Origin: an uncultured bacterium
GTDB taxonomy: Bacteria; Bacteroidota; Bacteroidia; Bacteroidales; Bacteroidaceae
Assembly: GCA_945829425.1 (NCBI GenBank)
Contig: CALZUQ010000023.1
Span: forward strand, 1 to 39,354
Reading direction: 5' to 3'
DNA: 39,354 bases
In this document: piece by piece, positions 12,740 to 32,521 of the stretch
How the letters are laid out: every line of letters begins with the position of its first letter
Position numbering within the stretch: position 1 is the first letter of the stretch
Notes under the pieces: generated by a model
Database searches by the model: none
What the model was told of the DNA's origin: nothing
The model's input: the letters and a program-made list of their open reading frames with translations, nothing else
Made by a program: the position numbers and the translations under genes

Positions 12740-14728
12740 ATGAAGAAAGAAATCCTTACAGCAGCCTTGGCAGTGGCTGCGACATTTGTTTCGGCGCAGA
12801 ACCCCTACCTGCCACTATGGGAGCATCTCCCCGACGGAGAACCGAGAGTCTTCGACGACCCTGACAACCCCGGAAAGAAGAGGGCATACATCGTTGGCTC
12901 GCACGACGTGAAATATACGGAATATTGCGGTAACGACATACGTATATGGTCGGCTCCCGTGGACGACCTCACCGACTGGCGCGATGAGGGACCGGTGTTC
13001 AGCCACTATGTCAACGGAGAGTGGGACACGATGTTTGCTCCCGACCTCGTGGAGGTCGCAGACAAGACTACGGGAAAGAAGACATATTGGCTATACCCCC
13101 ATTCGCGAGGCTGGAGGCGTGTCCCAATGGTCTGCAAGAGCGACAGGCCCGACGGACCTTTTACGCCAGTAAACCTCAATGCCGAAGGTACGGCATGTGT
13201 CGAAGGTTCGCTGATAGACTTCGACCCTTCGGTGTTTGTCGAGAACATCACCGACAAGAAAGACCCGGACTTCAGCCGAGGCTTCCGTGCCTATGTCTAC
13301 TACGGTTTCCGACACTCTACGGCTTACGAGCTTGATCAGGACAATATGTACGCCGTGCGACCGGGGACAGAGATACACGACTACTTCATTCCCGCAAGCG
13401 AGCGTTACGGTGTCATACGCGACCCTGAAGGTACGCAATATCCTGCGCTCTGCAAAGGGCAGAACCCCGGCGACTTCAATTTTTTCGAAGCGTCAAGCAT
13501 ACGTAAGGTGGGTAATAAATATATTATGGTGTTCTCTGGCTACAGCGGACCAGACTACGGGCTTGGCTCGACAAACTCCGCCCTGCGCTATGCCTACGGC
13601 GACTCGCCTCTCGGACCATGGCGTTCAGGCGGTGTTCTGGTAGACTCACGCGGAGTGGTTCCTGACGAAAACGGGCAGCATCTCGTCGGCATGAACGCCG
13701 CACACAACACCCACGGCTCCATTCAGGAAATAAATGGACAGTGGTATGTCTTCTATCATCGTCCGCCACGGGGCTTCGGCTTCGCACGCCAGGCTATGGT
13801 GGCACCGGTGAAAATAGTATGGGACAAGAAACCGGTGGCAAAGGGAGGCAAGGTTACCATAACGGCTTACGACCCATACGCCAAGGACAATGAGTGGACG
13901 GCTGAGGCTGCCGACGGAACGAGATATACCGGGGCTGAGGTGACAAGCGAGGGCTTCAATATTTTCGGACTGCCGCCATATGCGTATTACTCCGCAGGAA
14001 TAGCGTGTTACATGACCGACCAGCGTTGGTTGCAGGACAACTTCGACGTATGGAACAACGGCATGACGCTCGCCAACGTCGCTGACGGAGGTATCGTAGG
14101 GTTTAAGTATTTCGGCTTCGGAGGACTGCAGCAGCACACTAAGGGCATAAAGCCGTTCTGTGGAACAAAGCAGGGTGACGACACACGCCTGTTTGTTGCC
14201 CTCGCCTCGAAAGGCAAAGGGGCAGCACGCATACGTGTTATGCTCGACGGACCTTACGCCAACGAGACATGGAACGGAAAGGAGATTGCCGTAATCGACA
14301 TCAAAGCCGATGCGTCAAAAGAGGTGAAGATGTATGACGTTGCGGTGCCGGCAGTAGAAGGACTGTCGGGGAAACATGCCATTTATCTCAGAATAGAAGG
14401 TGAGGGGAAAGAAGGTCTTGTGGACATTTACGGCATTGGCTTCGGAAAAGACGGCGAGCCGTGTAAGATGCCTGTGGTGCCTGAAGTGAAAATTCTTGTC
14501 GACGGAAAGCCTGTGGCAATGCCCGCCTTGCCATTGTTCTCAACAAACAGAAACGGACTCATGGACCTGACGCATTATCAGCTGTACGCACCCCTGAAGC
14601 CTGACTCAAAGATAAACGTGGTGGTGGAAGGAGCGGAAATAAAGACAGAAGTGGGGAGAATAACCGACGGAAGGGCTAAGGTAAGATGCAGCTACAACGG
14701 AAAGGAGAAGGTGTTTCTTATAAACTAA
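12740..14728 (+). CDS. Secreted GH43-family glycosidase
   Basis: This 662-residue enzyme has a signal peptide (MKKEILTAALAVAATFVSAQ) and a five-bladed propeller of the GH43 type. The likely catalytic triad is the early Asp of PRVFDDP (about 39-40), Asp162 of DFDPSVF and Glu250 of FFEASSIRK. HNTHGSIQEINGQWYVFYHR is a typical blade-five motif. After about residue 365 the remainder is beta-rich (ITAYDPYAKDNEWTAEAADG onward), probably an accessory carbohydrate-binding region. GH43 enzymes release arabinose or xylose from hemicellulose and pectin side chains. GH51 follows after 21 bases, so the two are cotranscribed. Exact substrate and subfamily are not assignable here. Confidence 0.88.
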   Translation: MKKEILTAALAVAATFVSAQNPYLPLWEHLPDGEPRVFDDPDNPGKKRAYIVGSHDVKYTEYCGNDIRIWSAPVDDLTDWRDEGPVFSHYVNGEWDTMFAPDLVEVADKTTGKKTYWLYPHSRGWRRVPMVCKSDRPDGPFTPVNLNAEGTACVEGSLIDFDPSVFVENITDKKDPDFSRGFRAYVYYGFRHSTAYELDQDNMYAVRPGTEIHDYFIPASERYGVIRDPEGTQYPALCKGQNPGDFNFFEASSIRKVGNKYIMVFSGYSGPDYGLGSTNSALRYAYGDSPLGPWRSGGVLVDSRGVVPDENGQHLVGMNAAHNTHGSIQEINGQWYVFYHRPPRGFGFARQAMVAPVKIVWDKKPVAKGGKVTITAYDPYAKDNEWTAEAADGTRYTGAEVTSEGFNIFGLPPYAYYSAGIACYMTDQRWLQDNFDVWNNGMTLANVADGGIVGFKYFGFGGLQQHTKGIKPFCGTKQGDDTRLFVALASKGKGAARIRVMLDGPYANETWNGKEIAVIDIKADASKEVKMYDVAVPAVEGLSGKHAIYLRIEGEGKEGLVDIYGIGFGKDGEPCKMPVVPEVKILVDGKPVAMPALPLFSTNRNGLMDLTHYQLYAPLKPDSKINVVVEGAEIKTEVGRITDGRAKVRCSYNGKEKVFLIN

Positions 14729-14749
14729 TTCTAAAAACGGCATATACTG

Positions 14750-17143
14750 ATGAACAAGCTTTTTATGTCATGTCTTGCCGGCGTGGCATTGTCTGCTACG
14801 GCACAGAAGGCGACGATAACCGTCGACGTGGGTAATCCTGGCCATGAGGTGTCGCCGACGCTCTTCGGAATATTTCTGGAGGACATAAACCTCTCGGTCG
14901 ACGGGGGACTGTATCCTGAGCTGGTGCGCAACCGCTCGTTTGAGGACGCTGACACGCTGGCCTTCTGGCAGTTCAAGGCAGAGAAGGGAGAGGCGAGGGT
15001 GACGAAGGCTGACCTGGCGAACATGAAGAAACCGGTGACACCGCTGAACCCAATGAACAGGCAGTTCCTGAACGTAAAGGCCGACGGTGCTTTCGCGCTG
15101 AGAAACGACGGCTTCTGGGGAATGAACGTTGAGGACGGCGAGAAATATGACTTCTCCATGGCACTGCGTTCTCCCGAGACGTATAACGGAAGTCTGAAGG
15201 CGAAGGTCGTAGACCGTAACAACAGTGTGTTGGCAGAGACTGAGATAAAGGGCGTGACGGGAGAATGGAGATACACCAAAGCCACATTGTCGGCAAAAGG
15301 CTCGGCAACAGATGCCCGACTTGTTATTGAAGGCAACGGCAAGGGTGAGCTGTGCATGGACATGGTGAGCCTCATGCCTCAGAAACGTTGGGGCAAGAGT
15401 GGGGTGCGAGCCGACCTCGGCGAGGCTCTCAAGGCTCTCCGCCCTACGTTCTTCCGCTTCCCCGGCGGCTGTTGGGTAGAGGGTGAGGAGATAGCGTTGC
15501 GCTATCAGTGGAAAAACACCATAGGACCGGTGGACAGCCGCATTCCTTTATGGAATATATGGGAGTATAACGCTACTCACGGCATAGGCTATCACGAATA
15601 CCTGCAACTGGCAGAGGACCTCGGAGCGGAGCCGCTTTTCTGCATAAACGCCGGGGTGTCGCATAAGGAGGTGATTCCACCAGGACAGATAGACCAGTGG
15701 ATACAGGATGCTCTCGACGCTATAGAATACGCCAACGGACCGGTGACGAGCGTTTGGGGAGCGGCGCGTGCCCGCAACGGTCATCCTGAACCGTTCAACA
15801 TGAAATACATTGAGGTGGGCAACGAGAATTTCGGAAGCGTCTATTTCCAAAACTTTGAACTCATCACGAACGCCATCAAGGCACGCTATCCTGAGATGCA
15901 GGTCATAAGCAACGACTGGGGTGGTGCGCATCCTGTTAAGCCCGCCCACGCCATGGTCGACGAGCATTACTACAACAACCCCGACTGGTTCATTCTCAAC
16001 GCCAACAAATATGATAACCGGAAACGTGGCGAGGAGAAGGTGTTTATAGGCGAATATGCCGTGACGAGCAAATGCGGAAAGGGAAACATGCGTGGAGCGG
16101 TAGGCGAAGCGGCGTTCATGACAGGACTGGAGCGCAACGCCGACGTAGTGGCTATGGCAGCCTACGCACCGCTGCTATGTAACGTCAACCACCAGCGGTG
16201 GCCTATAAACCTCATAAACTACGACAGTCACAGTTGGTACGGACTGCCAAGCTATTACGTGCAGCAGATGTTTGCCGAGAACCAGGGCACGCACAACCTG
16301 CCTGTCACCGTCACGGGAAGCCCGCTGATGGACATTCCGTACACGTCGGGAGGCATAGGGCTCGGAACGTGGAAAAACAGTGCCGAATTCAAAGACCTTA
16401 AGGTGACAACGCCGAAGGGCAAGGTGCTGTACCAGACAGACTTCTCGACGGGCATAGACAACTGGGAGCAGATAGGCGACGGCGAATGGTCGGTAAGGGA
16501 CGGAGTGTTGAGGCAGTCGTCGTTTGCCACTGGCGTAACGGCGTTCACAGGCAATAACGCTTGGAAGGAATATGTCATTACATTGAAGGCGCGCAAGCTC
16601 TCAGGTGAGAACGGCTTCCAGATATATTTCCATCATCAGACAGGTGTCAACAATCGGACACGATGGGACATTGGAGGATATGGCAACTCCATAAACGAGA
16701 TGAAGACGGCAATGGACTCCAAGAGCATAAACTACTCCATTGAGGAGGGACGGTGGTATGACATTCGTCTGGAGGTCTCTCCACTGACGGTACGAGGATA
16801 TATAGACGGAAAACTCGTGCAGGAGGAGACGATGACTGACAAAAACCGCAAGACAATCTGTGCAAGTGCTCAGAAGGATGCGAAGACCGGCGACATAATA
16901 GTTAAGGTGGTGAATGCAGCAAATAAGGATATTGCCACTACCATAATTCTCAATGGCGCCGGGCAACTTGCACAGAAGGCAGAGGCAACAGTCCTCTCAT
17001 CAGCAAGCTCTCTTGACGAGAATAGCCTTGACAATCCTACTAAGGTAGCACCTCGTAAGGAGCAGGTGAGCCTCAGCGGTAACTGCATCAGTCGCAAGTT
17101 CCACGCAAACTCCGTGACTGTGCTGAGAATTTCAACTCGGTAG
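14750..17143 (+). CDS. Secreted GH51-type alpha-L-arabinofuranosidase
   Basis: This 797-residue protein has a signal peptide (MNKLFMSCLAGVALSATAQ) and begins with the GH51 signature HEVSPTLFGIFLEDINLSVDGGLYPELVRNRSFED. A small beta domain at about 75-210 precedes the TIM barrel. The acid/base is Glu359 in YIEVGNEN and the nucleophile Glu435 in FIGEYA; FFRFPGGC at about 234-241 is also typical. An extra segment at about 540-697 (TDFSTGIDNWEQIGDGEWSV onward) looks like a concanavalin-type domain inserted before the final beta domain, explaining the length above the usual 500-650. It removes alpha-L-arabinofuranose from arabinan or arabinoxylan. Middle gene of the operon. Confidence 0.93.
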   Translation: MNKLFMSCLAGVALSATAQKATITVDVGNPGHEVSPTLFGIFLEDINLSVDGGLYPELVRNRSFEDADTLAFWQFKAEKGEARVTKADLANMKKPVTPLNPMNRQFLNVKADGAFALRNDGFWGMNVEDGEKYDFSMALRSPETYNGSLKAKVVDRNNSVLAETEIKGVTGEWRYTKATLSAKGSATDARLVIEGNGKGELCMDMVSLMPQKRWGKSGVRADLGEALKALRPTFFRFPGGCWVEGEEIALRYQWKNTIGPVDSRIPLWNIWEYNATHGIGYHEYLQLAEDLGAEPLFCINAGVSHKEVIPPGQIDQWIQDALDAIEYANGPVTSVWGAARARNGHPEPFNMKYIEVGNENFGSVYFQNFELITNAIKARYPEMQVISNDWGGAHPVKPAHAMVDEHYYNNPDWFILNANKYDNRKRGEEKVFIGEYAVTSKCGKGNMRGAVGEAAFMTGLERNADVVAMAAYAPLLCNVNHQRWPINLINYDSHSWYGLPSYYVQQMFAENQGTHNLPVTVTGSPLMDIPYTSGGIGLGTWKNSAEFKDLKVTTPKGKVLYQTDFSTGIDNWEQIGDGEWSVRDGVLRQSSFATGVTAFTGNNAWKEYVITLKARKLSGENGFQIYFHHQTGVNNRTRWDIGGYGNSINEMKTAMDSKSINYSIEEGRWYDIRLEVSPLTVRGYIDGKLVQEETMTDKNRKTICASAQKDAKTGDIIVKVVNAANKDIATTIILNGAGQLAQKAEATVLSSASSLDENSLDNPTKVAPRKEQVSLSGNCISRKFHANSVTVLRISTR

Positions 17144-17169
17144 TTTTGCAGCAATAAAACAAAGATACG

Positions 17170-19692
17170 ATGAGAAAAGTATTATTATGTTTTATCTTGT
17201 TGCTGTTGGGGCAGTTTGTTAATGCCAACAGCGACCGTTTGACCGTGAAGAAAGAGGCAAACGGAGTGGTGATGATCTGTGGTGGCGAACGGCTGAAGGT
17301 GGAGTTCGTTAATCCTTCAGTCGTCAGGGTGCAGTATGTTCCCGAAGGCCAGCTCACGGACAATGGAACGATTGTTTGTCTGCCAGACAGGAAGCAAGGT
17401 GATGTGAAATGGGAACTGGTCGAAAGCAAGGACAAGGCGGTAATCAAATCAAGCCGCATTGTCCTTGAGATTGACCGTACAACGGGTTCTATATGCTACA
17501 AGTCAGCGGATGGCAGGATTCTTCTCAGCGAGAATGTTGAGAGTCCGCGAACGATGGAGAGCATAGCAATAGAAAAGACGGTCTATGACGACAGTAAGAG
17601 CAAGGTGGAGAAGACTGCCAACGGCGACCTTATGGTGAGCGATGTGGCATCGCGCAAGCAGGTGGGCACGGCATGGAAGGCACGTCAGCATTTCCTGTGG
17701 CAGGACGGCGAGGCTCTGTATGGCCTCGGTTCGCATCAGGAGAACTATATGAACCTTCGCGGCACCATGCAGTATCTCTATCAGCACAATATGAAGGCCT
17801 CCATTCCGGTATTGATGTCAACCTGCGGCTATGGTCTGCTGTTCGACGTCGGTTCGACGATGGTCTTCCACGACGATGCCGAGGGCAGTTATATGCAGAT
17901 GGATGCCGTGAACGAGATTGACTATTATTTCATGTATGGTCCTGAAATGGATGAAGTGGTGGCTCACTTCCGCTCGCTGACGGGTAAGGTGGGCATGATG
18001 CCACGATATCTGTTCGGCTATGTGCAGTCGAAGGAGCGTTATCCTGACCAAAACACCATCGACAGTGTTGTGACGAGATTCCGCAACGAGAGGATCCCAC
18101 TCGACGTTATCGTTCAGGACTGGAACTACTGGAATCCCAAATGGTGGGGGCACAAGCAGTTCCGTGCCGATGCCTATCCCGACCCGAAGGGAATGATTGA
18201 CGCAGTTCACAAGAAGAACGCCCACTTCATGCTCTCGCTTTGGCCCACAGCCAACGGCAACGAAGGCGAGGAGATGGGAGCTAAAGGCTATGTGCTGGGA
18301 CGTGGCATTTACGATGCCTACAATCCTGCATCGAGAAAGATGTATTGGGACGAGTATGCCTGTAAGAACCTCTTTTCATGTGGAGTGGATGCGTGGTGGT
18401 GCGACGGCTCTGAGCCTATCGACGGCGACTGGAATTACGCTTCCAACGACATTGCCAACAATCCCAAGGCACGCTATGAGAAGAACGCCAAGGAACTGTA
18501 TGACCTGCTCGGCATAATGCGATCAAACACTTTCTCGCTCTACCATTCGTGTGGCATATATGAAAACCAGCGCCGCACCACCAACGACAAGCGAGTGGTC
18601 AATCTCACTCGTTCCACTTATGCCGGTCAGCAGCGTTACGGTACGATAGTATGGAATGGCGACACGAAAGCCACTTGGCACGACTTCGCACAGCAGATAC
18701 CGTCGGGACTCAACTATATGGCTACGGGGTCGCCCTATTGGACAATAGATGTCGGAGCGTTCTTCGTAAGAAACGACAAGTCATGGTTTTGGCAGGGCAA
18801 CTATCCCAAGGGCACAATGGACAAGGGCTTCCGTGAGTTCTACGTGCGCAACCTGCAGTTCTGTCAGTGGTTGCCGATGTTCCGAAGCCACGGCACCGAC
18901 TGTGCCCGTGAGCCGTGGCAGTTTGGCAAGCCTGGCGAGATGTTCTACGATGCCGTCATCGACCAAATCAACCTACGCTACCGTCTGCTGCCTTACACCT
19001 ATTCCGTGGCGGCATCGATGATGCTCGACGACCGCACAATGACCCGCCCCTTGGTGTTCGACTTCCGCGACGACACCAATGTCTATGACATAAAAGACCA
19101 GCTCCTATTTGGGCCTGCCATCATGGCATGTCCCGTCACCAAGCCTATGTATTACGAGGCAGAGTCAAAGGAGCTTCGCGGCATCGACAAGTCACGTCAG
19201 GTTTATCTACCCAAGGGAACGGAGTGGATAGACTTCCATTCAGGTAAAAGAAACGAAGGCGGACGCATCATCACCGCCTATGCTCCCATCGACCGCATAC
19301 CGGTGTTAGTGCGTGCCGGTGCCATCATTCCTATGGGACCATTGCAGCAGTATTCGTCGGAGAACCCCGATGCTCCTTGGGAGATAAGGATTTACCCCGG
19401 TGCCGACGGCGAATTTACCGTATATGAGGACGAGGGCGACAACTATAACTACGAGCAGGGCAAGTATGCTACATACACACTTCGTTGGAACGACCGCTCC
19501 CGTCGTCTCACTATCAGCAGCCGTAAAGGTGACTTCAAGGGCATGACCCAGTCACGCCGCCTCAACATCGTGATTGTAGGCGAAGGCAAGGGAACCGGCA
19601 TCGACATTTCCAACAATGCTGATGGGGTCGTGGAATACGATGGAACAGAGAAGAGCATAATAATATCGAATGACAATTCCTCAATAAAATAA
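17170..19692 (+). CDS. Secreted GH31 alpha-glucosidase/alpha-xylosidase
   Basis: This 840-residue protein has a signal peptide (MRKVLLCFILLLLGQFVNA) and the full GH31 layout: N-terminal beta-sandwich, TIM barrel with FGYVQSKERY and VIVQDWNYW, and C-terminal beta domains. The nucleophile is Asp412 in WWCDGSEP and the acid/base is Asp498 in WNGDTKATW. The two enzymes before it act on pentose polymers, which favours alpha-xylosidase over alpha-glucosidase, but this is inference from context. It starts 26 bases after GH51 and ends the operon. Its stop codon overlaps the left arm of a 19-bp inverted repeat. Confidence 0.92.
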   Translation: MRKVLLCFILLLLGQFVNANSDRLTVKKEANGVVMICGGERLKVEFVNPSVVRVQYVPEGQLTDNGTIVCLPDRKQGDVKWELVESKDKAVIKSSRIVLEIDRTTGSICYKSADGRILLSENVESPRTMESIAIEKTVYDDSKSKVEKTANGDLMVSDVASRKQVGTAWKARQHFLWQDGEALYGLGSHQENYMNLRGTMQYLYQHNMKASIPVLMSTCGYGLLFDVGSTMVFHDDAEGSYMQMDAVNEIDYYFMYGPEMDEVVAHFRSLTGKVGMMPRYLFGYVQSKERYPDQNTIDSVVTRFRNERIPLDVIVQDWNYWNPKWWGHKQFRADAYPDPKGMIDAVHKKNAHFMLSLWPTANGNEGEEMGAKGYVLGRGIYDAYNPASRKMYWDEYACKNLFSCGVDAWWCDGSEPIDGDWNYASNDIANNPKARYEKNAKELYDLLGIMRSNTFSLYHSCGIYENQRRTTNDKRVVNLTRSTYAGQQRYGTIVWNGDTKATWHDFAQQIPSGLNYMATGSPYWTIDVGAFFVRNDKSWFWQGNYPKGTMDKGFREFYVRNLQFCQWLPMFRSHGTDCAREPWQFGKPGEMFYDAVIDQINLRYRLLPYTYSVAASMMLDDRTMTRPLVFDFRDDTNVYDIKDQLLFGPAIMACPVTKPMYYEAESKELRGIDKSRQVYLPKGTEWIDFHSGKRNEGGRIITAYAPIDRIPVLVRAGAIIPMGPLQQYSSENPDAPWEIRIYPGADGEFTVYEDEGDNYNYEQGKYATYTLRWNDRSRRLTISSRKGDFKGMTQSRRLNIVIVGEGKGTGIDISNNADGVVEYDGTEKSIIISNDNSSIK

Positions 19693-19929
19693 CGTGAGTT
19701 CGATGAATTTGAACTAACAGGAAAGGCGCAACAAGATATATCATCGAAAGGGTTAATATGTCTTCGTTGGCTGCAAGGTTAATAACCTTTCGGCTGCAAG
19801 GTTAATAACCTTTCGGCTGATAGGTTATTAATCTTATCGGCAATGAAGCCAACTTGCCATGGCAACGCAGCAATGTCCCGCCTCTGTCAGGTAAGTCTTA
19901 CTGTATGCAGAATTCATCGAACTGACGTT
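19691..19929. repeat. 239-bp element bounded by 19-bp inverted repeats
   Basis: AACGTGAGTTCGATGAATT at 19691-19709 is the inverse of AATTCATCGAACTGACGTT at 19911-19929 with one mismatch. An 11-base direct repeat AGGAAAGGCGC occurs at 19719-19729 and 19936-19946. Inside are two perfect tandem copies of a 23-base unit (19769-19791, 19792-19814) containing the palindrome AAGGTTAATAACCTT and a decayed third copy. No coding sequence is seen. The size and structure recall a MITE or a large mRNA 3' structure. Confidence 0.6.
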
Positions 19930-20154: not shown

Positions 20155-20241
20155 ATTTCTTCAGTTGGCTGAATTTTATTTCATCTGATGGCCGTATTTC
20201 ATTTCCTCTGTTGGCATTATTTCTTTCCTCAGTAGGCTGAA
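20155..20241. repeat. Four imperfect 22-23 bp tandem repeats
   Basis: Units starting at 20155, 20178, 20201 and 20223 follow the pattern ATTTCnTCnGTTGGCnG. The TTGGCTG core also recurs nearby at 19767 and, inverted, at 20112. The array lies downstream of the minus-strand sensor kinase. Function is unknown. Confidence 0.5.
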
Positions 20242-20357: not shown

Positions 20358-22661
20358 TTACGTAAGAGGTATTTCTACGACGAACCGTGTGCCAGGTCTG
20401 TTGTAGGTGGTGTCGAGAAAGACTGTTCCACCCATTCGCTCAGCTATTATCCTTACTAAAGACAGTCCGAGTCCTACTCCAGGCACAAAGGTGTCTTCCT
20501 TGTAGAAACGCTCGAAAATCCGTTTTTCATTGTTTTGCGATACCCCTTTTCCCGTATCGGCGACCGTCATCCTCAGTACCCCTTTGTCGTCATCTGCTGT
20601 AAGGTCAAGAGAGATCTCGCCCTTTGCGGTGAACTTGAAGGCGTTGTCGAGAAGACACTGTGCCATTCTAACCATAGCCTTCACATTGACACGGACTATG
20701 CGTTGCGGCATTTCCTGCTTGACAGCCTTCAGTTCTACTCCATTCTTCGGTTTGTCCGCGGCAGCCAGCATCTTTTCGAACAAGTCGCGCATAGTGATGT
20801 CCTCACGTTTGAGTGGTGTCTTGCCGCTTTCATATTCCGTTATCTCCACAAAGTCGTTCACCATTCGTGTCATGTGGTTTGCCTGACTCATAATAATGTT
20901 GTTGAACTGCTCCTTCTCGCTTTGTGCGATGTCAAGCCCCGGTGCCGTCAGCAACTGTGCGAAGCCTGAAATCTGATTTAGCGGAGTACGGATTTCATGG
21001 CTGATGTTTCGCAGCAGGTTACGTTTGAACTCCTCATTGTCCTCCACCTGTTGTTCCTTGTTACGCAGCTTGTTGCTCCATTTCCTGTATTCGAGTGGTG
21101 ATATGCCGTATTTCTTCTCAAAATACCTGCAGAACTCTGCCTCACTCCCCCATCCGCATTCCCGTGCTATCTCTGCCACTGTTTTGTCAGCTCCGCCTTT
21201 GAGCATCTTCACCGCAATGCGCATGTTAACGTCAGAAAGATATTTTTTAAGGTTCTTGGCGCTGTTCTTATTCTTCTCTTCCTGATTCTCCGTGCTGTTT
21301 ATGTGTAGCCCGAGCAGTTCGTCCTTTTGCTCCATAAGCTCTTCGATAGTTTTTACAGTAGCCATATTGCGGCGGCGTATGCGCTTGTTGTAATGCAGCA
21401 CAATTCCTATTACGACAACCAATAATACGCATACTATGCCGACGGCGTATATAAAGAGCCTCATCTGTGACATCTTCAGCGCGTTTTCCCTCAGCATAGC
21501 CTCTTTTTTCTCAGTCTCGTATGCCGTCATCATTTCCAACACCTTCCCGTTGCGTTCCCTCGCCTTGAGACTGTCAGCAAGAACTTTAAGGCGCAGCCCT
21601 ACTGCTGTGGCTTCCCTATACATTCCCAGTTTGTCGTATGCCACCATCTGGTTGTGCAGCACTCCATCTATGAATCCCTCGCTCATGGTATCTTTTGCGT
21701 TGACGTAGTATCTCTCCTGTTCTGCCAGGTTTGCCAGTGCCGCCTTGTATTTCTGCATATACATGAAACACGGTATCACTGTTGTCGTCCCGGCAGGAGT
21801 CTTTGCATACTCCGTTCCGACGACCATGTTAAAGTATCTCTCCGCCTTCTCCCTGTCACCCAATCCGTGGTATACGATACCTCTCAGTGCGGCAGTCTCC
21901 GCCAGCCGGCAGTCAAGATGTCTTTTCGTGACTCCTTCGCATTTTGCCATCGTCTCATACGCCTCCATACATTCCGCTACGGCTTTTTCTGCCTTTTCAA
22001 ACTCTTTTTCCGACACGAACAAGTCTATTTTCTTCATACACGCCATAAGTATATTGTCGGCTGTGTATAAGTCCCTTTGTGCCGCTCCCGTCTGTTTGAA
22101 CAGAGCTATGCTCTCGTCAATGTCCCTCACCGCTTCGTCTGTTGTTCCAAGGGCAGACTTTACGAACCCTAAGTTCATTGTAAAGTAAGCCTCCCCTTCC
22201 ACGTTGCCCGTTTTTCTCGCCACCTCCATGCCTTTTTTCAGATACGTCATTGCGTCAGAGTAATATCCGAGCTGGTAGTTGAGCATTCCGAGTGTCTTGA
22301 GCGTCTTTACGAGCAGAGTGGTGTCAGAGGCACATTCCGGACATTCGTAAACCTTGCGCATGTAGTTGAGGGCTACTGCCGACTGGTTGTAAACATTATT
22401 ATATATAACCGACTTCATTCCGTAAATGTCATATTGCGGAATGAGTTTCCTGTTTTCAGCAGTGTCGAGCATATTCAGTGCTTTGGCTGCGTCGGTTATG
22501 GCAACTGTCCTGATGTTGTCGAGAGTGTATAGGCTGTCGTTGGAGCCGGAGTTTCTTTCTTGACCGTTATGTCCGCAGGCTACAAAGCTGGCGCATATGC
22601 TCATAAGGCATGCTGCGGTCAGCATGGCGAGGCTCGCCTTTGTCAAAAATCTTAAAGTCAT
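20358..22661 (-). CDS. TPR sensor kinase with internal half AraC-type HTH
   Basis: This 767-residue protein joins parts rarely seen in this order. A signal peptide with a lipobox-like SFVAC (about 25-29) leads to a helical TPR-like region (about 45-385) containing paired repeats such as LGMLNYQLGYYSDAMTYLKKG. One transmembrane helix follows (about 400-423), then a single AraC-type HTH (about 480-528, TVAEIARECGWGSEAEFCRYF...ISPLEYRKW). A HisKA domain has His555 in ISHEIRTP, and the ATPase domain has Asn673 (LLDNAFKF), DTGKG 702-706 and GVGLG 728-732. All kinase boxes are intact and there is no receiver domain. The first HTH of a normal AraC domain is not visible. It is divergent from the TolC/MacAB run, which it may control. 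Confidence 0.88.
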   Translation of the reverse strand: MTLRFLTKASLAMLTAACLMSICASFVACGHNGQERNSGSNDSLYTLDNIRTVAITDAAKALNMLDTAENRKLIPQYDIYGMKSVIYNNVYNQSAVALNYMRKVYECPECASDTTLLVKTLKTLGMLNYQLGYYSDAMTYLKKGMEVARKTGNVEGEAYFTMNLGFVKSALGTTDEAVRDIDESIALFKQTGAAQRDLYTADNILMACMKKIDLFVSEKEFEKAEKAVAECMEAYETMAKCEGVTKRHLDCRLAETAALRGIVYHGLGDREKAERYFNMVVGTEYAKTPAGTTTVIPCFMYMQKYKAALANLAEQERYYVNAKDTMSEGFIDGVLHNQMVAYDKLGMYREATAVGLRLKVLADSLKARERNGKVLEMMTAYETEKKEAMLRENALKMSQMRLFIYAVGIVCVLLVVVIGIVLHYNKRIRRRNMATVKTIEELMEQKDELLGLHINSTENQEEKNKNSAKNLKKYLSDVNMRIAVKMLKGGADKTVAEIARECGWGSEAEFCRYFEKKYGISPLEYRKWSNKLRNKEQQVEDNEEFKRNLLRNISHEIRTPLNQISGFAQLLTAPGLDIAQSEKEQFNNIIMSQANHMTRMVNDFVEITEYESGKTPLKREDITMRDLFEKMLAAADKPKNGVELKAVKQEMPQRIVRVNVKAMVRMAQCLLDNAFKFTAKGEISLDLTADDDKGVLRMTVADTGKGVSQNNEKRIFERFYKEDTFVPGVGLGLSLVRIIAERMGGTVFLDTTYNRPGTRFVVEIPLT

Positions 22662-22734
22662 AGTGCTTTACAGTTATGGCGTGTTCTGCAACAATGTTTT
22701 TCTTGTGTATGAGTAAGGTTCTCATATTCCTTTG

Positions 22735-22742
22735 CAAAGGTA
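22735..22742 (-). promoter_or_regulatory. Promoter (TTTG, 20-base gap, TACCTTTG) for the sensor kinase
   Basis: On the minus strand TTTG at 22766-22763 is followed after 20 bases by TACCTTTG at 22742-22735, a full match to the -33/-7 layout. It lies 74 bases upstream of the kinase start. Confidence 0.7.
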
Positions 22743-22805
22743 ATGGTTTTATTTTTCACTGCCAAACACTTGGCTTATTTTTCGCATTATATTTTAAGTT
22801 GGGGT

Positions 22806-22831
22806 AAGGTGGGAATTAATGAACCTACCTT
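22806..22831. repeat. Palindromic GGTGGG/CCTACC motif, copy 2
   Basis: AAGGTGGG at 22806-22813 is inverted as CCTACCTT at 22824-22831 (one G:T-type mismatch), around AATTAATGAA. The same motif appears, degenerate, at 11041-11077 and 35238-35272. Here it sits between two divergent promoters. Confidence 0.5.
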
Positions 22832-22990
22832 AGGCGTAACAGCCAAGTCGGGCACAGTATTTCGCAAATAGATGTTAATTCATGGTGAAAATACGCCATT
22901 TCGTAGATATGGCAGAGGACGCATATCGAAAAGAGATGTAAATTAACATTTTATATGTCTCTGAACCTTTCCTGATAGATAGAAAAGAAG

Positions 22991-22998
22991 TACTTTTG
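22991..22998 (+). promoter_or_regulatory. -7 promoter element ahead of the TolC/MacAB run
   Basis: TACTTTTG followed by CAA matches TAnnTTTG, 48 bases before the TolC-type start at 23046. No good TTG is found at -33. Together with the minus-strand promoter it fills the 384-base divergent interval 22662-23045. Confidence 0.6.
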
Positions 22999-23045
22999 CA
23001 AGGCATAACGAAACGTGGAACGAATTTTTACGGACATTTTTTTAC

Positions 23046-24401
23046 ATGAGAAAAAGACTATTATTCCTGTTTCTGCCCCAGTTGTTCTGTACCAGCCTTT
23101 CGGAAGCCCAGACATGGACCCTTGACGACTGTCTGCGCTACGCCATGGAGAACAATATCTCCCTCGGCAAGGCTGGTGTGACACGTCAGACTGCGGCAGA
23201 AACGACACGCCAGTCGAAGGCGCAGGTGCTCCCCTCACTGAGTTTCTCTACAAGTCATAGCGTGGCATACACCCCATGGCTCCTCGACGGTACGGCGACG
23301 GTAACTGACGGGCGTGTGGAGCAGAGTGTCGACAAGGTGTCGTACAACGGTCAGTACAGCCTCAGCGCAAACTGGACGGTATGGAACGGCAACAGAAACT
23401 ACAACCAGGTGAGGCTTAACGCTCTGGCTGAGCAGCAGGCTCTGATAGACAGCATAATGACAGCGAGGAACATCGAAGAGCAGATCATGCAGCTCTACGT
23501 ACAGATACTCTATACGAAGGAGGCCATCAGCGTGAACAAGGCGACGCTCGAAGCCGCCAAGCTCAACGAGCAACGCGGCAGCCACATGGTGGACGTGGGA
23601 CAGATGAGTCGTGCGGACCTCTCGCTGCTCACGGCAGAAAGGGCTCAGGACGAATATAACGTGGTCGAGGCAGAGAGCCAGGAACGTAACTACAAACGCC
23701 AGCTGAAGGAACTCCTGCAGCTCACCACCGAAGAGCCTTTCGACATCGCCATGCCGGAATATACCGAGGCGATGGCTTTGGAGCCCGTGCCAGCTCTCGC
23801 AACGGTATATAGCGGAGCCTTGGAGAGCCGTCCGGAACTTAAGAGCGCGATGCTGAGCCTGAAGAGCGCAGAGGTGCAGGGCAGGATAGCCCGCGCACAG
23901 CGTATGCCGACGCTGAGCATGACGGCATCTGTCTCTGCTGGCACAAACAGCCTCACCGACGAGGCGTGGGCGGCACAGATGAAAGCCAACGTACGCAGCG
24001 GAGCGTCGCTGTCGCTCAGTGTGCCTCTCTTCGACCAACGCACCACACGCACCGCCGTCAACAAGGCCAAGCTGCAAAGGCAGGATGCGGAACTGGAGAT
24101 ACGCAACCGCCAGACGGCGTTATACAGCACGATAGAAAACTACTGGATACAGGCAGGCAACTACCAGAAACAGTATGTGGCTGCTAAAGTCAGCACGCAG
24201 AGTGCGCAGGACAGCTACGACCTCCTCTCTGAGCAGTTTGCCGTAGGACTGAAGAACATCGTAGAGCTGCAGGACGGCAAGACCCGCCTCTTATCCGCCC
24301 GGCAGAGCGAGCTTCAATCGAAATATATGACGATACTCAATCTGCGTATGCTCGCCTTCTACCGCAACGGAGTGATGAGCGGCGATACGGCGGAACATTA
24401 G
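23046..24401 (+). CDS. TolC-family outer membrane efflux protein
   Basis: This 451-residue protein has a signal peptide (MRKRLLFLFLPQLFCTSLSEA) and the opening WTLDDCLRYAMENNISL, standard for the TolC/OEP family. Long helical stretches rich in Ala, Gln and Glu make two OEP repeats, with PTLSMTASVSAG and LSLSVPLFDQRTTRTAVNKAKLQ marking the second. Trimers form an outer-membrane channel with a periplasmic tunnel. It is the first gene of a run with a MacA-type adaptor and MacB-type ABC parts, so it is probably their dedicated exit duct. Confidence 0.92.
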   Translation: MRKRLLFLFLPQLFCTSLSEAQTWTLDDCLRYAMENNISLGKAGVTRQTAAETTRQSKAQVLPSLSFSTSHSVAYTPWLLDGTATVTDGRVEQSVDKVSYNGQYSLSANWTVWNGNRNYNQVRLNALAEQQALIDSIMTARNIEEQIMQLYVQILYTKEAISVNKATLEAAKLNEQRGSHMVDVGQMSRADLSLLTAERAQDEYNVVEAESQERNYKRQLKELLQLTTEEPFDIAMPEYTEAMALEPVPALATVYSGALESRPELKSAMLSLKSAEVQGRIARAQRMPTLSMTASVSAGTNSLTDEAWAAQMKANVRSGASLSLSVPLFDQRTTRTAVNKAKLQRQDAELEIRNRQTALYSTIENYWIQAGNYQKQYVAAKVSTQSAQDSYDLLSEQFAVGLKNIVELQDGKTRLLSARQSELQSKYMTILNLRMLAFYRNGVMSGDTAEH

Positions 24402-24483
24402 AAACCACTATAAAACGAAGGGAACAGACAGCCCTTCAAGCAGGTAACCATAACAAACAGAATACCACACTAAGCCGAGAGAC

Positions 24484-25662
24484 ATGAAAAAGAAGATATA
24501 TATAATAATAGGTGTAGCAATAGCCGCCATGCTCCTCGTATGGCTGCTGTCAGGAGGAAAGAAAGAGGGCGGCGTGACGTATAACACCGCTGAGGCCGAC
24601 ATGAGGGACATAACGTCGAGCGTGACGGCGACGGGAACCTTGGAGCCGGTGACGAGCGTAACGGTAGGTACGCAGGTCAGCGGCATCGTGGCACACCTCT
24701 ATGTAGATTATAACAGCATAGTGAAGAAAGGACAGGTGATTGCCGAACTCGACAAGACAAACCTCACCAGCGAGCTGGCGTCGGCAAAGGCGCAGAGAGA
24801 GTCGGCGCAAAGCAACCTTGACTATCAGAAAGCCAACTACGAACGCTACAAGACGCTATTCGAAAAAGGACTCGTAGCTGCCAACGACTTCGAGCAGGCG
24901 CGCCTGACATACCTTCAGGCGGTGCAGAGCCTCCGGACATCCAACGAAGGCGTGCGCAAGGCAGAGACAAACCTCGGCTACGCCACCATCACCTCACCCA
25001 TTGACGGCATAGTGCTCTCGAAAGCCGTGGAGGAGGGACAGACCGTGGCAGCGTCGTTCAACACGCCTGAGCTCTTCACCATAGCGCAGGACCTCACGAA
25101 GATGCAGGTCATTGCCGACATTGACGAGGCGGACATCGGCGAGGTGAAGGAGGGAGAGCGCGTGACGTTCACCGTGGACGCTTTCCCTGACGATACCTTC
25201 TCAGGCACGGTGACACAGGTGCGCCAGGTAGCCACGACAGAGAGCAACGTGGTGACATACGAGGTAGTCATCTCGGCACAGAATGACGACCTGAAGCTCA
25301 AGCCGGGTCTTACGGCAAACGTAGTGATATTCACCAAGGAGGTGAAGGACGTGCTCTCGGTGCCAGCGAAAGCTCTGCAGTTCACGCCGAACGAAAAGAT
25401 GCTCAGCGAGGGGCAGACGATAGCCGACTGCAACGCGCAGCATAAGGTGTGGACACTGGAGGGCAATGTCTTCAAGGCACACGCCGTAAGTGTCGGCATG
25501 ACAAACGGCATCCTGACAGAGATAACAGCCGGAGTCAAGAAAGGCATGAGAGTGGTCACGGACTTCTCTATGGCTGCAACGGGAGCACCTGAGCCACAAC
25601 AGGGAGGCGACAACCCCTTTATGCCGAAACCGCCGTCGGCAAACAAGAACAGGAAACAGTAA
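24484..25662 (+). CDS. macA: MacA-type periplasmic adaptor (membrane fusion protein)
   Basis: This 392-residue protein has an N-terminal membrane anchor (MKKKIYIIIGVAIAAMLLVWLLSGG), a biotinyl-lipoyl-like half-motif (VTVGTQVSGIVAHLYVDYNSIVKKGQVIAEL), an alpha-helical hairpin (about 95-165), the second lipoyl half (ATITSPIDGIVLSKAVEEGQTV) and beta-barrel and membrane-proximal domains. These are the HlyD/MacA family parts in the normal order. It links the inner-membrane MacB-type transporter to the TolC-type channel. The C-terminal tail is Pro/Gly/Lys-rich. What the pump exports (antibiotic, peptide, haem or lipid-like molecule) cannot be told from sequence. Confidence 0.92.
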   Translation: MKKKIYIIIGVAIAAMLLVWLLSGGKKEGGVTYNTAEADMRDITSSVTATGTLEPVTSVTVGTQVSGIVAHLYVDYNSIVKKGQVIAELDKTNLTSELASAKAQRESAQSNLDYQKANYERYKTLFEKGLVAANDFEQARLTYLQAVQSLRTSNEGVRKAETNLGYATITSPIDGIVLSKAVEEGQTVAASFNTPELFTIAQDLTKMQVIADIDEADIGEVKEGERVTFTVDAFPDDTFSGTVTQVRQVATTESNVVTYEVVISAQNDDLKLKPGLTANVVIFTKEVKDVLSVPAKALQFTPNEKMLSEGQTIADCNAQHKVWTLEGNVFKAHAVSVGMTNGILTEITAGVKKGMRVVTDFSMAATGAPEPQQGGDNPFMPKPPSANKNRKQ

Positions 25663-25680
25663 GGGAGAGAGTGCAGAGAC

Positions 25681-26469
25681 ATTGACAAGGAAAGAAATAC
25701 CTCACCGACCCCTCCTGCCGACGGCAGGAAGGTCGTCATAGAACTGAACAACGTCCGGCGTGAGTTCAAGGTTGGCTCAGAGACGGTGAAGGCTCTCCGC
25801 GGAATAACGTTTAAGATATACGAAGGAGAGTTCGTAACCATTATGGGAACCTCCGGCTCGGGGAAGTCTACGCTGCTCAACCAGCTTGGGTGTCTTGACA
25901 CTCCGACATCAGGAGAGTATCTGCTTGACGGCATTCCTGTACGCTCAATGTCGAAGAGCAAGCGCGCAAGGCTGCGCAACCGTAAGATAGGCTTCGTCTT
26001 CCAGAACTATAACCTTCTGGCGAAAACGACGGCTGTGGAGAACGTCGAGCTGCCGCTGATGTACAACGCAGAGTATAACGCTAAGCAACGCCGCGAGGCT
26101 GCCGTCAAAGCCCTGCAGGCGGTAGGTCTCGGCAACCGCCTTGGGCATAAGTCGAACCAGATGTCCGGAGGACAGATGCAGCGTGTCGCCATAGCGCGGG
26201 CCTTGGTGAACAACCCCGCCGTAATCCTCGCCGACGAGGCAACGGGAAACCTCGACACCCGCACGTCGTTCGAGATGCTCGTGCTCTTCCAGCAACTGCA
26301 CCGCGAGGGTCGCACGATAATATTCGTGACCCACAATCCTGAGATAGCGCAGTATTCCTCCAGGAACATCACATTGTGCGACGGCAAGATACGCGACGAC
26401 GTAGAGAACCGTAACATCCTCTCTGCTGCGGAAGCACTTGCGGCACTGCCACAGCCTCAGGACGAGTGA
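25681..26469 (+). CDS. MacB-type ABC transporter ATPase, noncanonical start
   Basis: This ATPase (about 262 residues from ATT 25681) powers a MacB-like exporter. It shows the MacB/LolD-type opening VVIELNNVRREFKVGSETVKALRG, Walker A GTSGSGKST, Q-loop FVFQNYNL, signature MSGGQMQRVAIARAL, Walker B AVILADEATGNLD and H-loop FVTHNPE. The conserved first strand lies upstream of the first GTG (25786), yet between the previous stop (25662) and 25786 no in-frame ATG, GTG or TTG exists. ATT at 25681 would give a natural-looking DKERNTSPT beginning; ATA 25738 or CTG 25744 after AGGAAGG are alternatives. A point change or sequence error at the start codon is possible. Confidence 0.88.
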   Translation: MDKERNTSPTPPADGRKVVIELNNVRREFKVGSETVKALRGITFKIYEGEFVTIMGTSGSGKSTLLNQLGCLDTPTSGEYLLDGIPVRSMSKSKRARLRNRKIGFVFQNYNLLAKTTAVENVELPLMYNAEYNAKQRREAAVKALQAVGLGNRLGHKSNQMSGGQMQRVAIARALVNNPAVILADEATGNLDTRTSFEMLVLFQQLHREGRTIIFVTHNPEIAQYSSRNITLCDGKIRDDVENRNILSAAEALAALPQPQDE

Positions 26470-26521
26470 CCAACCAGCCCCCACCAATAATAACAACATA
26501 TAATATTTGCACACCTACTTT

Positions 26522-27742
26522 ATGAATTTCATCAATCTTTTGAAGGTGGCGCTAAAGGCTATTTCAAGCAATAAGTTCCGCTCCTTTCTCTCCATGCTCG
26601 GCATCATAATCGGCGTTGCGGCGGTAATAGTGATGATGGCAATAGGGCAAGGCTCTAAGGAGTCCATACGCGCCAACCTCTCGCAGATGGGTACGAACAT
26701 CATCATGATACGCCCGGGAGCGGACATGAGGGGCGGAATACGCCAGGACCCTTCCGCCATGCAGACGCTGAAGGTCGACGACTACGAGAAGATCCGCAGC
26801 GAGGCGAAATACATCACCTACGTCTCGCCGGAGGTGACAGCCTCAGGGCAGTGTATCAACGGCAACAATAACACGTCGACGACGATGTACGGCGAGTCGC
26901 CGGAATATCTCTCGATAAAACAATGGGAGGTGACAAACGGAGGGGTGTTCACCGACGAGGACATCAAGAAGAGCGCGAAGGTGTGTCTCGTAGGAAAGAC
27001 TGTTGTCGACGAACTCTTCCCCAACGGTCAGGACCCCGTAGGGAAGGTGGTGAGATTCAAAAGCATCCCGTTCAGGATTGTCGGCGTATTGAAGAGCAAG
27101 GGCTACAACAACTTCGGCATGGATCAAGACAACCTGCTCATTGCGCCATACACCACGGTGATGAAACGTCTCACAGCACAGACATACCTCTCAAGCGTCA
27201 ACTGCTCGGCACTCTCTGAGGAGATGACCGATGATGCCATTGACGAATTAACCGCCATACTCCGTCGGCAGCATAAGCTGAAGGACGAGTCTGACGACGA
27301 CTTTACCATACGCTCGCAGCAGGAGATGATGGATACGATGTCGTCTACAATGGACACCGTGACGATAATACTCGTCGTGGCTGCGGCGTTCTCCCTCCTC
27401 GTTGCGGGAATTGGCATCATGAACATCATGCTTGTCAGCGTCACGGAGCGCACGAAGGAGATAGGCCTGCGCATGGCGGTGGGAGCGAGAGGACTGGACA
27501 TAAGCAACCAGTTTCTCATAGAGAGCATAATAATATCGCTGACGGGAGGCGCCTTGGGCGTGGTGCTCGGCATAATGCTCTCGGAGGGCGCACACGCTCT
27601 TTTCAACCTCCCCGTATCCGTACCGATGTGGAGCATAGTGGTGTCGTTCGTGGTATGCACTATAATAGGCGTCGGCTTCGGATATTTCCCGGCACGAAAG
27701 GCCGCACGCATGGACCCTATCGAGGCAATACGCTACGAATGA
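26522..27742 (+). CDS. MacB-type ABC transporter permease
   Basis: This 406-residue permease has one N-terminal transmembrane helix (SFLSMLGIIIGVAAVIVMMAIGQG), a large periplasmic MacB_PCD domain (about 45-270) and three C-terminal helices of the FtsX type (TIILVVAAAFSLLVAGIGIMNIMLVSVTERTKEIGLRMAVGAR onward), ending in ARMDPIEAIRYE, a common end of this family. I prefer ATG 26522 over the upstream TTG 26507. In Escherichia coli MacB the ATPase and permease are fused; here they are two genes 52 bases apart, which is usual in Bacteroidetes. It pairs with the ATPase before it. Confidence 0.92.
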   Translation: MNFINLLKVALKAISSNKFRSFLSMLGIIIGVAAVIVMMAIGQGSKESIRANLSQMGTNIIMIRPGADMRGGIRQDPSAMQTLKVDDYEKIRSEAKYITYVSPEVTASGQCINGNNNTSTTMYGESPEYLSIKQWEVTNGGVFTDEDIKKSAKVCLVGKTVVDELFPNGQDPVGKVVRFKSIPFRIVGVLKSKGYNNFGMDQDNLLIAPYTTVMKRLTAQTYLSSVNCSALSEEMTDDAIDELTAILRRQHKLKDESDDDFTIRSQQEMMDTMSSTMDTVTIILVVAAAFSLLVAGIGIMNIMLVSVTERTKEIGLRMAVGARGLDISNQFLIESIIISLTGGALGVVLGIMLSEGAHALFNLPVSVPMWSIVVSFVVCTIIGVGFGYFPARKAARMDPIEAIRYE

Positions 27743-28177: not shown

Positions 28178-29020
28178 ATGCACAAGAAAGGAGGAAAGAG
28201 AAAGGGCAGGAAAGACACCGCCCGCGCCACAGGGATTTGTAACGTAAGGAGCTCTGAGAAAACCGTGCTGCATTTCCGTAAGACGACGCGCGACGGCAAG
28301 AAGACAAGCTATTTCTGGTTTTCCACGACCATACTCGGCAGCCTGAACCTGATACTCGCAGCCTCCGTGGCGTTCGCATTGCGTTCCAAAGAGCATATCG
28401 CAGAACTGGAGGAAAGGCAGCGTGAGGCTGAAATGGCACGTCAGGAGGCTGAACTGGCAGGACTCCGCAACAGCATCTCGCCGCATTTCCTGCTCAACAC
28501 CCTAAACAATATCTACGCTCTTGCACAGATTGACGCCGGACGCACGCAATCTGCCGTGCTGCAGCTCTCGCGGCTCCTGCGCCATATCCTCTACGACAAC
28601 CGGCAGGAGAAAGTGTCGCTGTGCTCAGAATGTGACTTCCTCAAGGATTATATAGACCTTATGAAGCTCCGCATGCCAAAGAACGTCAAGGTTTCCACGG
28701 TGATAGACATAGACACTGACGCCAACACCACCGTTGCGCCTCTCATATTCATATCGCTCGTAGAGAACGCCTTCAAACACGGCGTGGCGGCGGGACTGCC
28801 AAGCTTCGTGGCTATTACGGTGACGGAGGACGAACGTAACATAGTATGCCGCACGGAGAACAGCAACAACCCGAAGTCTTCAGCCGACCGTTCCGGACAC
28901 GGCATAGGGCTGCAGCTTGTGAAACAACGCCTCGACGCGCTATATGCCGGACGCTTCACATGGGAGAAAGGTGTCTCCCAGGACAATGTATATTACTCGT
29001 ATCTGACAATAAAGAAATAA
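28178..29020 (+). CDS. LytS/YehU-type sensor histidine kinase (C-terminal part)
   Basis: This 280-residue frame has a very basic start, one transmembrane helix (about 48-68), a coiled-coil linker rich in Glu and Ala (about 70-93), the His_kinase domain with the H-box NSISPHFLLNTLNNIYAL (His103), and an ATPase domain with LVENAFKHG and GHGIGLQLVKQRLDALY. These motifs define the LytS family, which pairs with LytTR regulators. The next gene is one, 11 bases away. Only one membrane helix remains in this frame; three more lie in the frame before the in-frame stop at 28136. The real start is uncertain; ATG 28178 has AGGGG directly next to it. Confidence 0.82.
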   Translation: MHKKGGKRKGRKDTARATGICNVRSSEKTVLHFRKTTRDGKKTSYFWFSTTILGSLNLILAASVAFALRSKEHIAELEERQREAEMARQEAELAGLRNSISPHFLLNTLNNIYALAQIDAGRTQSAVLQLSRLLRHILYDNRQEKVSLCSECDFLKDYIDLMKLRMPKNVKVSTVIDIDTDANTTVAPLIFISLVENAFKHGVAAGLPSFVAITVTEDERNIVCRTENSNNPKSSADRSGHGIGLQLVKQRLDALYAGRFTWEKGVSQDNVYYSYLTIKK

Positions 29021-29031
29021 CTAACCCGCTT

Positions 29032-29745
29032 ATGACATGCGCTATTATTGACGACGAGCCGCTCGCCGCCGACCTCCTCGCCTCCTATGTGGAGAAGACC
29101 CCTTTCCTTCAGCTTGTAGGCACATACAGCAGTGCCGTAGAAGCTATGAAGATGATACGTAACAACGCCGTCGACCTCCTCTTCCTCGACATACAGATGC
29201 CGGAACTCTCAGGACTGGAGTTCGCCACCATACTGCCACAGCATACCATGGTGGTGTTCACAACGGCTTTCGACCGTTATGCCGTAGAAAGCTACCGGGT
29301 CAACGCTCTCGACTATCTGCTCAAGCCTATCTCTTACGACAGCTTCCTGCGCTCGGCAAACAAAGCCTTGCAGAACTATGAACTCATGAACGCCGTATGC
29401 CACGAGGGAAACACAAGGGCGAGGTTCTTCTTCGTCAAAAGCGGATATAAGCTCGTGCGCGTGGACTTCGACGAGATACTATATATTGAAGGTGTAAAAG
29501 ACTATGTAAGACTGTGGCTGACCGGCGAAGACCGTAAGATTGACAGCCTGATGAACATGAAGACACTAGAAGCGCTGTTGCCGAAGACGGACTTCATGAG
29601 AATACACCGCTCGTATATCATTAACCTCAGCAAAGTGCAGCATCTCGACCATCTGCGCATATTGATAGGATGCATCCACCTCCCCGTATCAGACGGATAT
29701 AAGGAGGCTGTGATGAAATATTTCTCGCAGCATACTATTGAATAA
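29032..29745 (+). CDS. LytTR-family response regulator
   Basis: This 237-residue regulator has a receiver domain (1-120) with the acidic pair IIDDEPL, phosphoacceptor Asp53 in LLFLDIQMPELSG, and Lys98 in DYLLKPIS. A LytTR DNA-binding domain (about 135-235) follows with VKSGYKLVRVDFDEILYIEGVKDYV and MRIHRSYIINLSKV. I start it at ATG 29032 because that ATG opens directly into the receiver strand TCAIIDDEP; longer frames overlap the kinase. It is the partner of the kinase just upstream and ends at a terminator, so the pump and its two-component system form one cluster. Confidence 0.94.
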   Translation: MTCAIIDDEPLAADLLASYVEKTPFLQLVGTYSSAVEAMKMIRNNAVDLLFLDIQMPELSGLEFATILPQHTMVVFTTAFDRYAVESYRVNALDYLLKPISYDSFLRSANKALQNYELMNAVCHEGNTRARFFFVKSGYKLVRVDFDEILYIEGVKDYVRLWLTGEDRKIDSLMNMKTLEALLPKTDFMRIHRSYIINLSKVQHLDHLRILIGCIHLPVSDGYKEAVMKYFSQHTIE

Positions 29746-29807: not shown

Positions 29808-29969
29808 ATGTACTGACCGTAAAGAAAACATTTCCTACAGGGATGATTTTTCTTTTTATAAGGAAGAAATCTTCCTTCCAAGCCTTGGAACGAAGATTTT
29901 ATCCGCATGAAAAATATTTTTCCAGGCATGGACATTAAGATGTGGCATTATTTTTTATTTTTTTTAAAA

Positions 29970-30983
29970 ATGAACGCAATAATACATGTTTTTTCTCGTT
30001 ATAAAATTGTGGCGAATAGTATATCTACGATAATCTATGGGGTCGGAAGGCGTCTCAAGGCGGTTCTCATGACCATTGCCGTGCTCTCCGCTCAGGAGGT
30101 CATGGCGCAGTACGACGTAGTGTTCAGCCACTACTACGATATGGAGCCGAGCTTCAACCCCGCAGCGGTAGGCAAGGACAAGAAACTGAATATACGTGCC
30201 GCATACGCCATGGACCTTGCTGGCTTCGAGCATAACCCGCAGACGGCTTACCTCGGTGCCGACATGCCGTTCCGCTTCCTCAATGCTACGCACGGAGCCG
30301 GTATACAGTTCGTAAACGACAAGCTCGGACTCTTCAACCATACACGCCTGTCGCTGCAATACGCCAACAAGCAGAGACTCTTCGGGGGAACGCTGAGCGT
30401 AGGACTGCAGTTGGCAATGCTCGCAGAGAGCTTCGACGGATCAGACCTTGACCTTGAAGAGAGCAGCGACCCGGCTTTCAGCTCCTCACATATAAACGGG
30501 AACGCCTTCGACATTTCAGCAGGACTTTACTATACGTGGAAAGACCTGTATGTGGGACTCTCGGCGAAACATCTTACAGCACCGAAGGTGGAACTGGGAG
30601 AGCTGAACGAGCTGAAGGTCTCGGCGGCATATTACGCCACGGCGGGCTACACCATAAATCTGCGCAACCCTATGATGACGGTGAAGACATCGGCATTGGC
30701 GAGGACTGACGGTGTCATGACACGTGCCGACTTCACGGCGCGCCTGATATACACCACGGAGAAGAAACGTTTCTACGGAGGATTGTCCTATAGCCCGACA
30801 AACTCCGTAACAGCTCTGCTGGGAATGGACATACAGGGAATACACGTCGGCTACAGCTATGAGTGTTACACCTCGGGATTGAACCCGGGAAACGGCTCCC
30901 ACGAGCTCTTCGTGGCATATCAGATGGATCTCAATATCGTAAAGAAAGGAAAAAACCTGCATAAGTCGGTGAGGTTCTTGTAA
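29970..30983 (+). CDS. PorP/SprF-family type IX secretion outer membrane protein
   Basis: This protein of about 337 residues has the PorP/SprF mature opening AQYDVVFSHYYDMEPSFNPAAVGKDKKLNIRAAY and barrel strands throughout, ending KGKNLHKSVRFL. It is an outer-membrane partner of the type IX secretion or gliding complex and precedes gldK-gldN, the standard order. The start is uncertain. The frame is open from 29907; ATG 29970 and GTG 30009 are both possible, and the cleavable signal is RRLKAVLMTIAVLSAQEVMA. I chose 29970 as a compromise. P. gingivalis PorP is the reference member. Confidence 0.85.
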   Translation: MNAIIHVFSRYKIVANSISTIIYGVGRRLKAVLMTIAVLSAQEVMAQYDVVFSHYYDMEPSFNPAAVGKDKKLNIRAAYAMDLAGFEHNPQTAYLGADMPFRFLNATHGAGIQFVNDKLGLFNHTRLSLQYANKQRLFGGTLSVGLQLAMLAESFDGSDLDLEESSDPAFSSSHINGNAFDISAGLYYTWKDLYVGLSAKHLTAPKVELGELNELKVSAAYYATAGYTINLRNPMMTVKTSALARTDGVMTRADFTARLIYTTEKKRFYGGLSYSPTNSVTALLGMDIQGIHVGYSYECYTSGLNPGNGSHELFVAYQMDLNIVKKGKNLHKSVRFL

Positions 30984-31052
30984 CGACAACAACACCAAAA
31001 AACGTATATATAACACACCATATAACAATATGTTTGAAACCAAGGAGTGGAT

Positions 31053-32510: not shown

Positions 32511-32521
32511 GGAGTAAAAAA

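Follow-up and report, generated by a model that had tools for sequence, protein, structure and literature searches.

The 39,354-nucleotide stretch analyzed here (the window: contig CALZUQ010000023.1 of assembly GCA_945829425.1, from an uncultured member of the Bacteroidaceae) encodes a predicted sensor histidine kinase that carries the second half of an AraC-type DNA-binding domain between its membrane helix and its kinase core. This half domain, with a single helix-turn-helix (HTH) motif, is probably a former DNA reader that has been reused as the protein-facing neck of the predicted kinase. The reading is built on the domain order, the missing first HTH (HTH1), a sensor and coil shared with kinase-less regulators, the single clade formed by the kinase modules, the conservation of the HTH, and its loss of basic residues.

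The initial annotation of the gene, made from the sequence alone, proposed a chain consisting of a lipoprotein-like signal, tetratricopeptide repeats (TPR), a transmembrane (TM) helix, an AraC-type HTH, a HisKA domain with His555, and a HATPase domain, and Pfam together with the sequence bears this out. TPR_12 and TPR_8 score above their Pfam cut-offs, as do HTH_18 at residues 467–527 (42.1 bits, cut-off 33.6) and HTH_AraC at residues 492–527 (27.2 bits, cut-off 26.6). HisKA (54.1 bits) contains His555 within the invariant motif SHEIRTPLNQI, while HATPase_c (73.8 bits), with which the protein ends, has readable N, G1, F, and G2 boxes. By these domains, HisKA with its histidine and HATPase_c, the gene product is a HisKA-type sensor histidine kinase with predicted kinase activity. 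No receiver family is found at E ≤ 1 in a Pfam scan of the 767-residue protein, again as first described. The AlphaFold2 (AF2) model of the TPR region has a predicted local distance difference test score that is mostly 82–95 by block up to about residue 360 and ≤60 from there to residue 390.

Both the sequence and the predicted fold of the HTH region match the second half of AraC domains, namely helix 4, the second HTH (HTH2), and helix 7. The HTH_18 match covers only profile positions 20–79 of 80, and residues 464–537 are predicted by AF2, with matches from Foldseek and VIA, to form these three elements. The segment from 470 to 530, on whose folding the initial annotation had made its proposal depend, is predicted to be an HTH. 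HTH_18 matches in the same genome begin at profile position 1–4 in 20 of 22 cases; the two exceptions are this gene (start 19) and a paralog without TPRs (start 30), indicating that the half domain is real and unusual in its own genome. Alignment with a full-AraC relative (L028) shows what is missing. A stretch of about 48 columns that includes HTH1 is present in the relative and absent from 13 kinase rows, which run from helix 7 straight on into HisKA; some 44 further columns in the relative form a distinct low-complexity insert. The view that only the second HTH of the AraC pair is present is thus upheld by the missing columns and the late profile start. A degenerate but retained HTH1 is ruled out by length and by this alignment. 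A chance or artefactual HTH match is ruled out by the curated cut-off, the fold match, conservation, and the presence of HTH_18 in all 23 aligned members of the family.

The half domain is also well kept. HTH identity between the two clades of the family is 33%. The TPR region (22%), the TM helix (20%), and the preceding linker (18%) fall below this value, and the coil (38%), HATPase (47%), and HisKA (54%) exceed it. Ratios of nonsynonymous to synonymous substitution (dN/dS) for 15 ortholog pairs of the sister clade are 0.14 for the HTH, 0.16 for HATPase, 0.24 for the TPR region, 0.21 for the linker, 0.09 for the coil, and 0.03 for HisKA. The HTH value lies near that of HATPase, so the half domain is under about the same constraint as the catalytic domain. 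These figures bear on the proposal that the half domain is an inert leftover of a fusion, tolerated as a spacer without a task. The flanking linkers are indeed variable, and the preceding linker has a dN/dS not far from that of the HTH. An idle spacer is nevertheless improbable given the near-catalytic constraint on the HTH, the invariance of core residues and of Trp528 in helix 7 across clades at an HTH identity of 33%, and the retention of the half domain in the paralog that lost its TPRs.

The surface that would have read DNA has changed. The mean net charge of HTH2 is −1.2 in 26 family segments and +2.6 in 13 full AraC segments of the same genome (13 of 20 loci, leaving out seven that did not parse). 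A basic residue after the second Phe of the recognition helix occurs in 10 of 13 full domains and in 1 of 24 distinct family helices, two duplicates having been merged. The position directly before the first Phe (x5) is acidic in 14/24 family helices and in 0/13 full domains, and the glutamates at 507, 509, and 515 occur in all eight rows of the window's own clade. Going by the structure of MarA, the compared positions would face DNA; rows P0002–P0008 were left out of the HTH-only model (A5). As judged from these residues, much of the basicity typical of AraC readers is gone from the half-HTH.

These charges weigh most directly on the proposal that the protein is a membrane-held kinase that still reads DNA. 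Its dimer would pair two HTH2 motifs in place of an HTH1–HTH2 pair, and phosphorylation or dimer geometry would gate promoter binding with no response regulator. The predicted HTH2 fold appears intact, full-AraC relatives suggest a DNA-binding ancestor, and the sister-clade helix has basic residues. Furthermore, no Response_reg domain was found among 10 neighboring genes scanned around six other family loci, and a conserved response-regulator neighbor was rejected on the same scan. Against it stand the negative HTH2, the near-complete loss of the common basic residue, and the acidic recognition helix of the window's clade; in addition, the divergent promoter region (22662–23045), which the initial annotation had suggested as a DNA target, holds no convincing operator-like repeats, only short or imperfect ones. 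DNA reading by the kinase is consequently unlikely, and slightly more so in its full form, a kinase dimer with one half-AraC per chain that would serve as sensor, switch, and transcription factor at once without a response regulator. Binding to DNA by the dimer is judged less likely than a protein-facing neck from the sequence comparisons. The initial annotation had offered both a DNA-binding kinase and an HTH reused as a dimerization or signaling linker; the charge data appear to fit the linker better and lean against the DNA-binding kinase.

A protein-facing neck suggests the following route for the signal. The TPR region, predicted to be periplasmic, would sense a ligand or a partner, and the signal would pass through the TM coil to the half-HTH, which may sit atop the dimerization and histidine phosphotransfer (DHp) helices of the dimer. 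There it could contact the core of its own kinase or a response regulator encoded elsewhere and so set kinase or phosphatase output. The genome (92.7% complete) contains 14 receiver domains. A precedent for this reading exists in the same phylum: according to a report on hybrid two-component systems (HTCS), one recognition helix of their AraC domain is predicted to pack on the receiver, lowering phosphorylation rates and DNA binding (PMC11253607).

The half-HTH might instead dock the AraC-type HTH of another protein, either a TPR-TM-AraC relative or a response regulator, to form mixed complexes. Of seven genomes with a family kinase, two (G079, G130) have a TPR-TM-full-AraC relative as well at E ≤ 1e-40, but five lack one at this threshold, and in two genomes (G087, G123) such a regulator occurs without a kinase match. 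Mixed complexes of this kind are accordingly given little weight.

Several observations count against the protein-facing neck. The dN/dS contrast between linker and HTH is modest, the coil and HisKA are held more strictly, and the values come from the sister clade and not from the window's own. In the helix comparison, x8 is basic in 14/24 family helices and 0/13 full domains, and x7 in 14/24 and 8/13, respectively; much of the sister clade has the basic x7 with the gained basic x8, so that any loss of DNA affinity is uneven across the family. Because the rows in the charge and residue tests are related, their p-values are optimistic. The full-length AF2 model has a predicted template modeling score of only 0.45 and does not give the packing of the domains, while the variable, low-confidence linker between coil and HTH argues against a rigid mechanical relay from the membrane. 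Finally, in a tree of the sensor region with outgroups, the kinases are not all joined: three regulators fall among them and two changes are needed, with weak support. The spacing from Trp528 to the phospho-acceptor histidine takes values of 24, 27, 28, 29, 34, and 35, a hint of helical-repeat steps in a set too small for a claim.

The likely source of the half domain is seen in four kinase-less regulators (L028, L103, L107, L108), which have a lipoprotein-like start, a sensor region, a TM helix, the coil motif, and then a full AraC domain. For two of them (L107, L108), Pfam lists no TPR match, and they are grouped with the TPR proteins because their sensor regions are homologous. In a tree of kinase modules, 27 family rows form one clade (100/100) apart from 26 others, which fits one fusion; the nearest module outside the clade belongs to L003, an HTH-less kinase of the window's own genome. 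A rough sensor tree without outgroups needs one change (80/83), although its cut was faulty for several rows. These comparisons suggest that the half-HTH kinase likely arose from a TPR-membrane-AraC regulator through loss of HTH1 and acquisition of a kinase. The sensor trees disagree or are weak, and any order of these events is therefore tentative.

Half-HTH kinases are, by their sequences, a recurring family in some Prevotella and not a one-off. A protein search that scored the 7996 candidates with the most shared words found at least seven full-length relatives (59–98% identical), and residues 300–541 as query (1848 candidates scored) returned the same seven. The paralog without TPRs (L002:1321-2649, contig C5; 442 residues) retains a signal-like start, the TM helix, the half-HTH, and the kinase. 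Matches over nearly the whole protein occur in 7 of 200 genomes of the genus. Among 398 genomes of the genus, 24 matched the linker-HTH region; nine of these count as carriers of a divergent family (best match 192–251 bits over the full region), and 15 were set aside at ≤54 bits with mainly the HTH covered. Loci read from five of these 15 (L079, L081, L082, L087, L090) show no kinase behind the HTH. No other carrier was found among 399 genomes at the family level, where five matched, four of them only over the HTH part (≤51.4 bits), and only the window's own genome matched among 395 at the phylum level; a wide taxonomic spread was thus not found in either sampling. A scan of named genomes with a single peptide pattern, which samples rather than exhausts them, found 11 loci, all titled Prevotella, and ten of these hold 15 complete kinases; L041, truncated by the contig end, was left out. 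Two loci carry three half-HTH kinase paralogs in tandem (L031:6816-13639, L032:251-7080). HTH_18, HisKA, and HATPase are present in all 23 aligned members, none of which has a receiver at E ≤ 0.001 in Pfam. TPR_12 exceeds its threshold in 11 of the 23, and members with no TPR match above threshold are assigned to the TPR type by homology of their sensor regions.

Table 1. Features of the half-HTH kinase gene; positions are those of the window.
Feature	Position	Strand	Basis
Whole gene, 767 aa; predicted TPR lipoprotein-like sensor histidine kinase with half AraC domain	20358..22661	−	ATG start
Signal peptide with lipobox-like Cys29 (residues 1–29)	22575..22661	−	Read from sequence; Cys29 invariant in 23/23 aligned rows
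TPR sensor region (46–390), predicted periplasmic	21492..22526	−	Pfam TPR matches; AF2 all-helical
Transmembrane helix (~402–423)	21393..21458	−	Read from sequence; helix in AF2 model
Juxtamembrane coil (424–452), conserved, common to TPR-TM-full-AraC relatives	21306..21392	−	
Variable low-confidence linker (453–472), place expected for HTH1	21246..21305	−	
Half AraC domain: helix 4, HTH2, start of helix 7 (464–528)	21078..21272	−	HTH_18, AF2 helices, Foldseek and VIA matches
Former recognition helix of HTH2 (507–518), Glu at 507, 509, 515	21108..21143	−	
Family signature Y-x-x-W (525–528), invariant Trp528	21078..21089	−	20/20 nonredundant rows
HisKA (546–612), phospho-acceptor His555	20826..21026	−	Pfam; His555 invariant in alignment
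HATPase_c (662–766)	20364..20678	−	Pfam; Foldseek of full model to solved kinases

Divergently oriented to the half-HTH kinase gene, and 384 bases from it, is a series of outer-membrane efflux protein, HlyD, ABC, and MacB/FtsX genes (23046–27742). Downstream of the efflux genes lie a His_kinase (PF06580) gene and a gene for a receiver with a LytTR domain (28178–29745), whose open reading frames (ORFs) overlap; the latter gene is about 6 kb from the half-HTH kinase gene. At five other loci (L031, L034, L035, L036, L040), family members stand between flavin mononucleotide (FMN) oxidoreductase-like and short-chain dehydrogenase-like genes, Pfam-typed in L031 only; this repeated arrangement may point to a redox or lipid-like signal. 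Two short tandem arrays of 23-base units (19769–19841 and 20155–20237) lie between a GH31 gene and the 3′ end of the kinase gene. Farther away, the ORFs at 29907–36409 read as PorP/SprF followed by GldK, GldL, GldM, and GldN of the type IX secretion system. A likely plant-polysaccharide locus comprises several successive glycoside-hydrolase-like genes (12740–19692), of which Pfam confirmed GH31 and the rest were read from the sequence, together with two pectate-lyase-like proteins (5324–9836), likewise read from the sequence.

The family offers a conversion that can be followed in sequences: a membrane-held one-component transcription regulator seems to have become a two-component sensor by losing part of its DNA reader and acquiring a kinase after what remained. 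If the half reader now serves as a protein interface, the family illustrates how a module for binding DNA can be made into a signaling neck; if it still binds DNA, the kinase would need no response regulator. Full-AraC relatives, the TPR-less paralog, and tandem sister copies provide natural controls.

The protein shares features with several known systems and differs from each of them. No description of the same domain order, which the initial annotation had allowed might already be well described, appears by title or abstract start in open-access full-text literature among the matches listed. The TPR-membrane-AraC one-component regulators share the lipoprotein-like start, sensor region, TM helix, coil motif, and AraC HTH2, but end in a full AraC domain with no kinase where this protein has a kinase and half the domain. 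TPR sensor kinases of Bacteroidota, such as L003, share the TM helix, HisKA, HATPase, and a TPR-like sensor (TPR_12 is below the cut-off in L003), but in L003 no HTH lies between TM and HisKA. HTCS of Bacteroides and Prevotella likewise join a membrane kinase and an AraC-type HTH in one chain. Their order, in contrast, is kinase, receiver, and full C-terminal AraC, and a standard HTCS is ruled out here by the lack of a receiver and by a partial HTH_18 match that precedes the kinase. With the AraC/XylS DNA-binding domain (HTH_18; MarA, ToxT, AraC) the half-HTH shares the predicted fold of helix 4, HTH2, and helix 7, although it lacks HTH1 and helices 1–3 and the charges of its recognition helix are changed.
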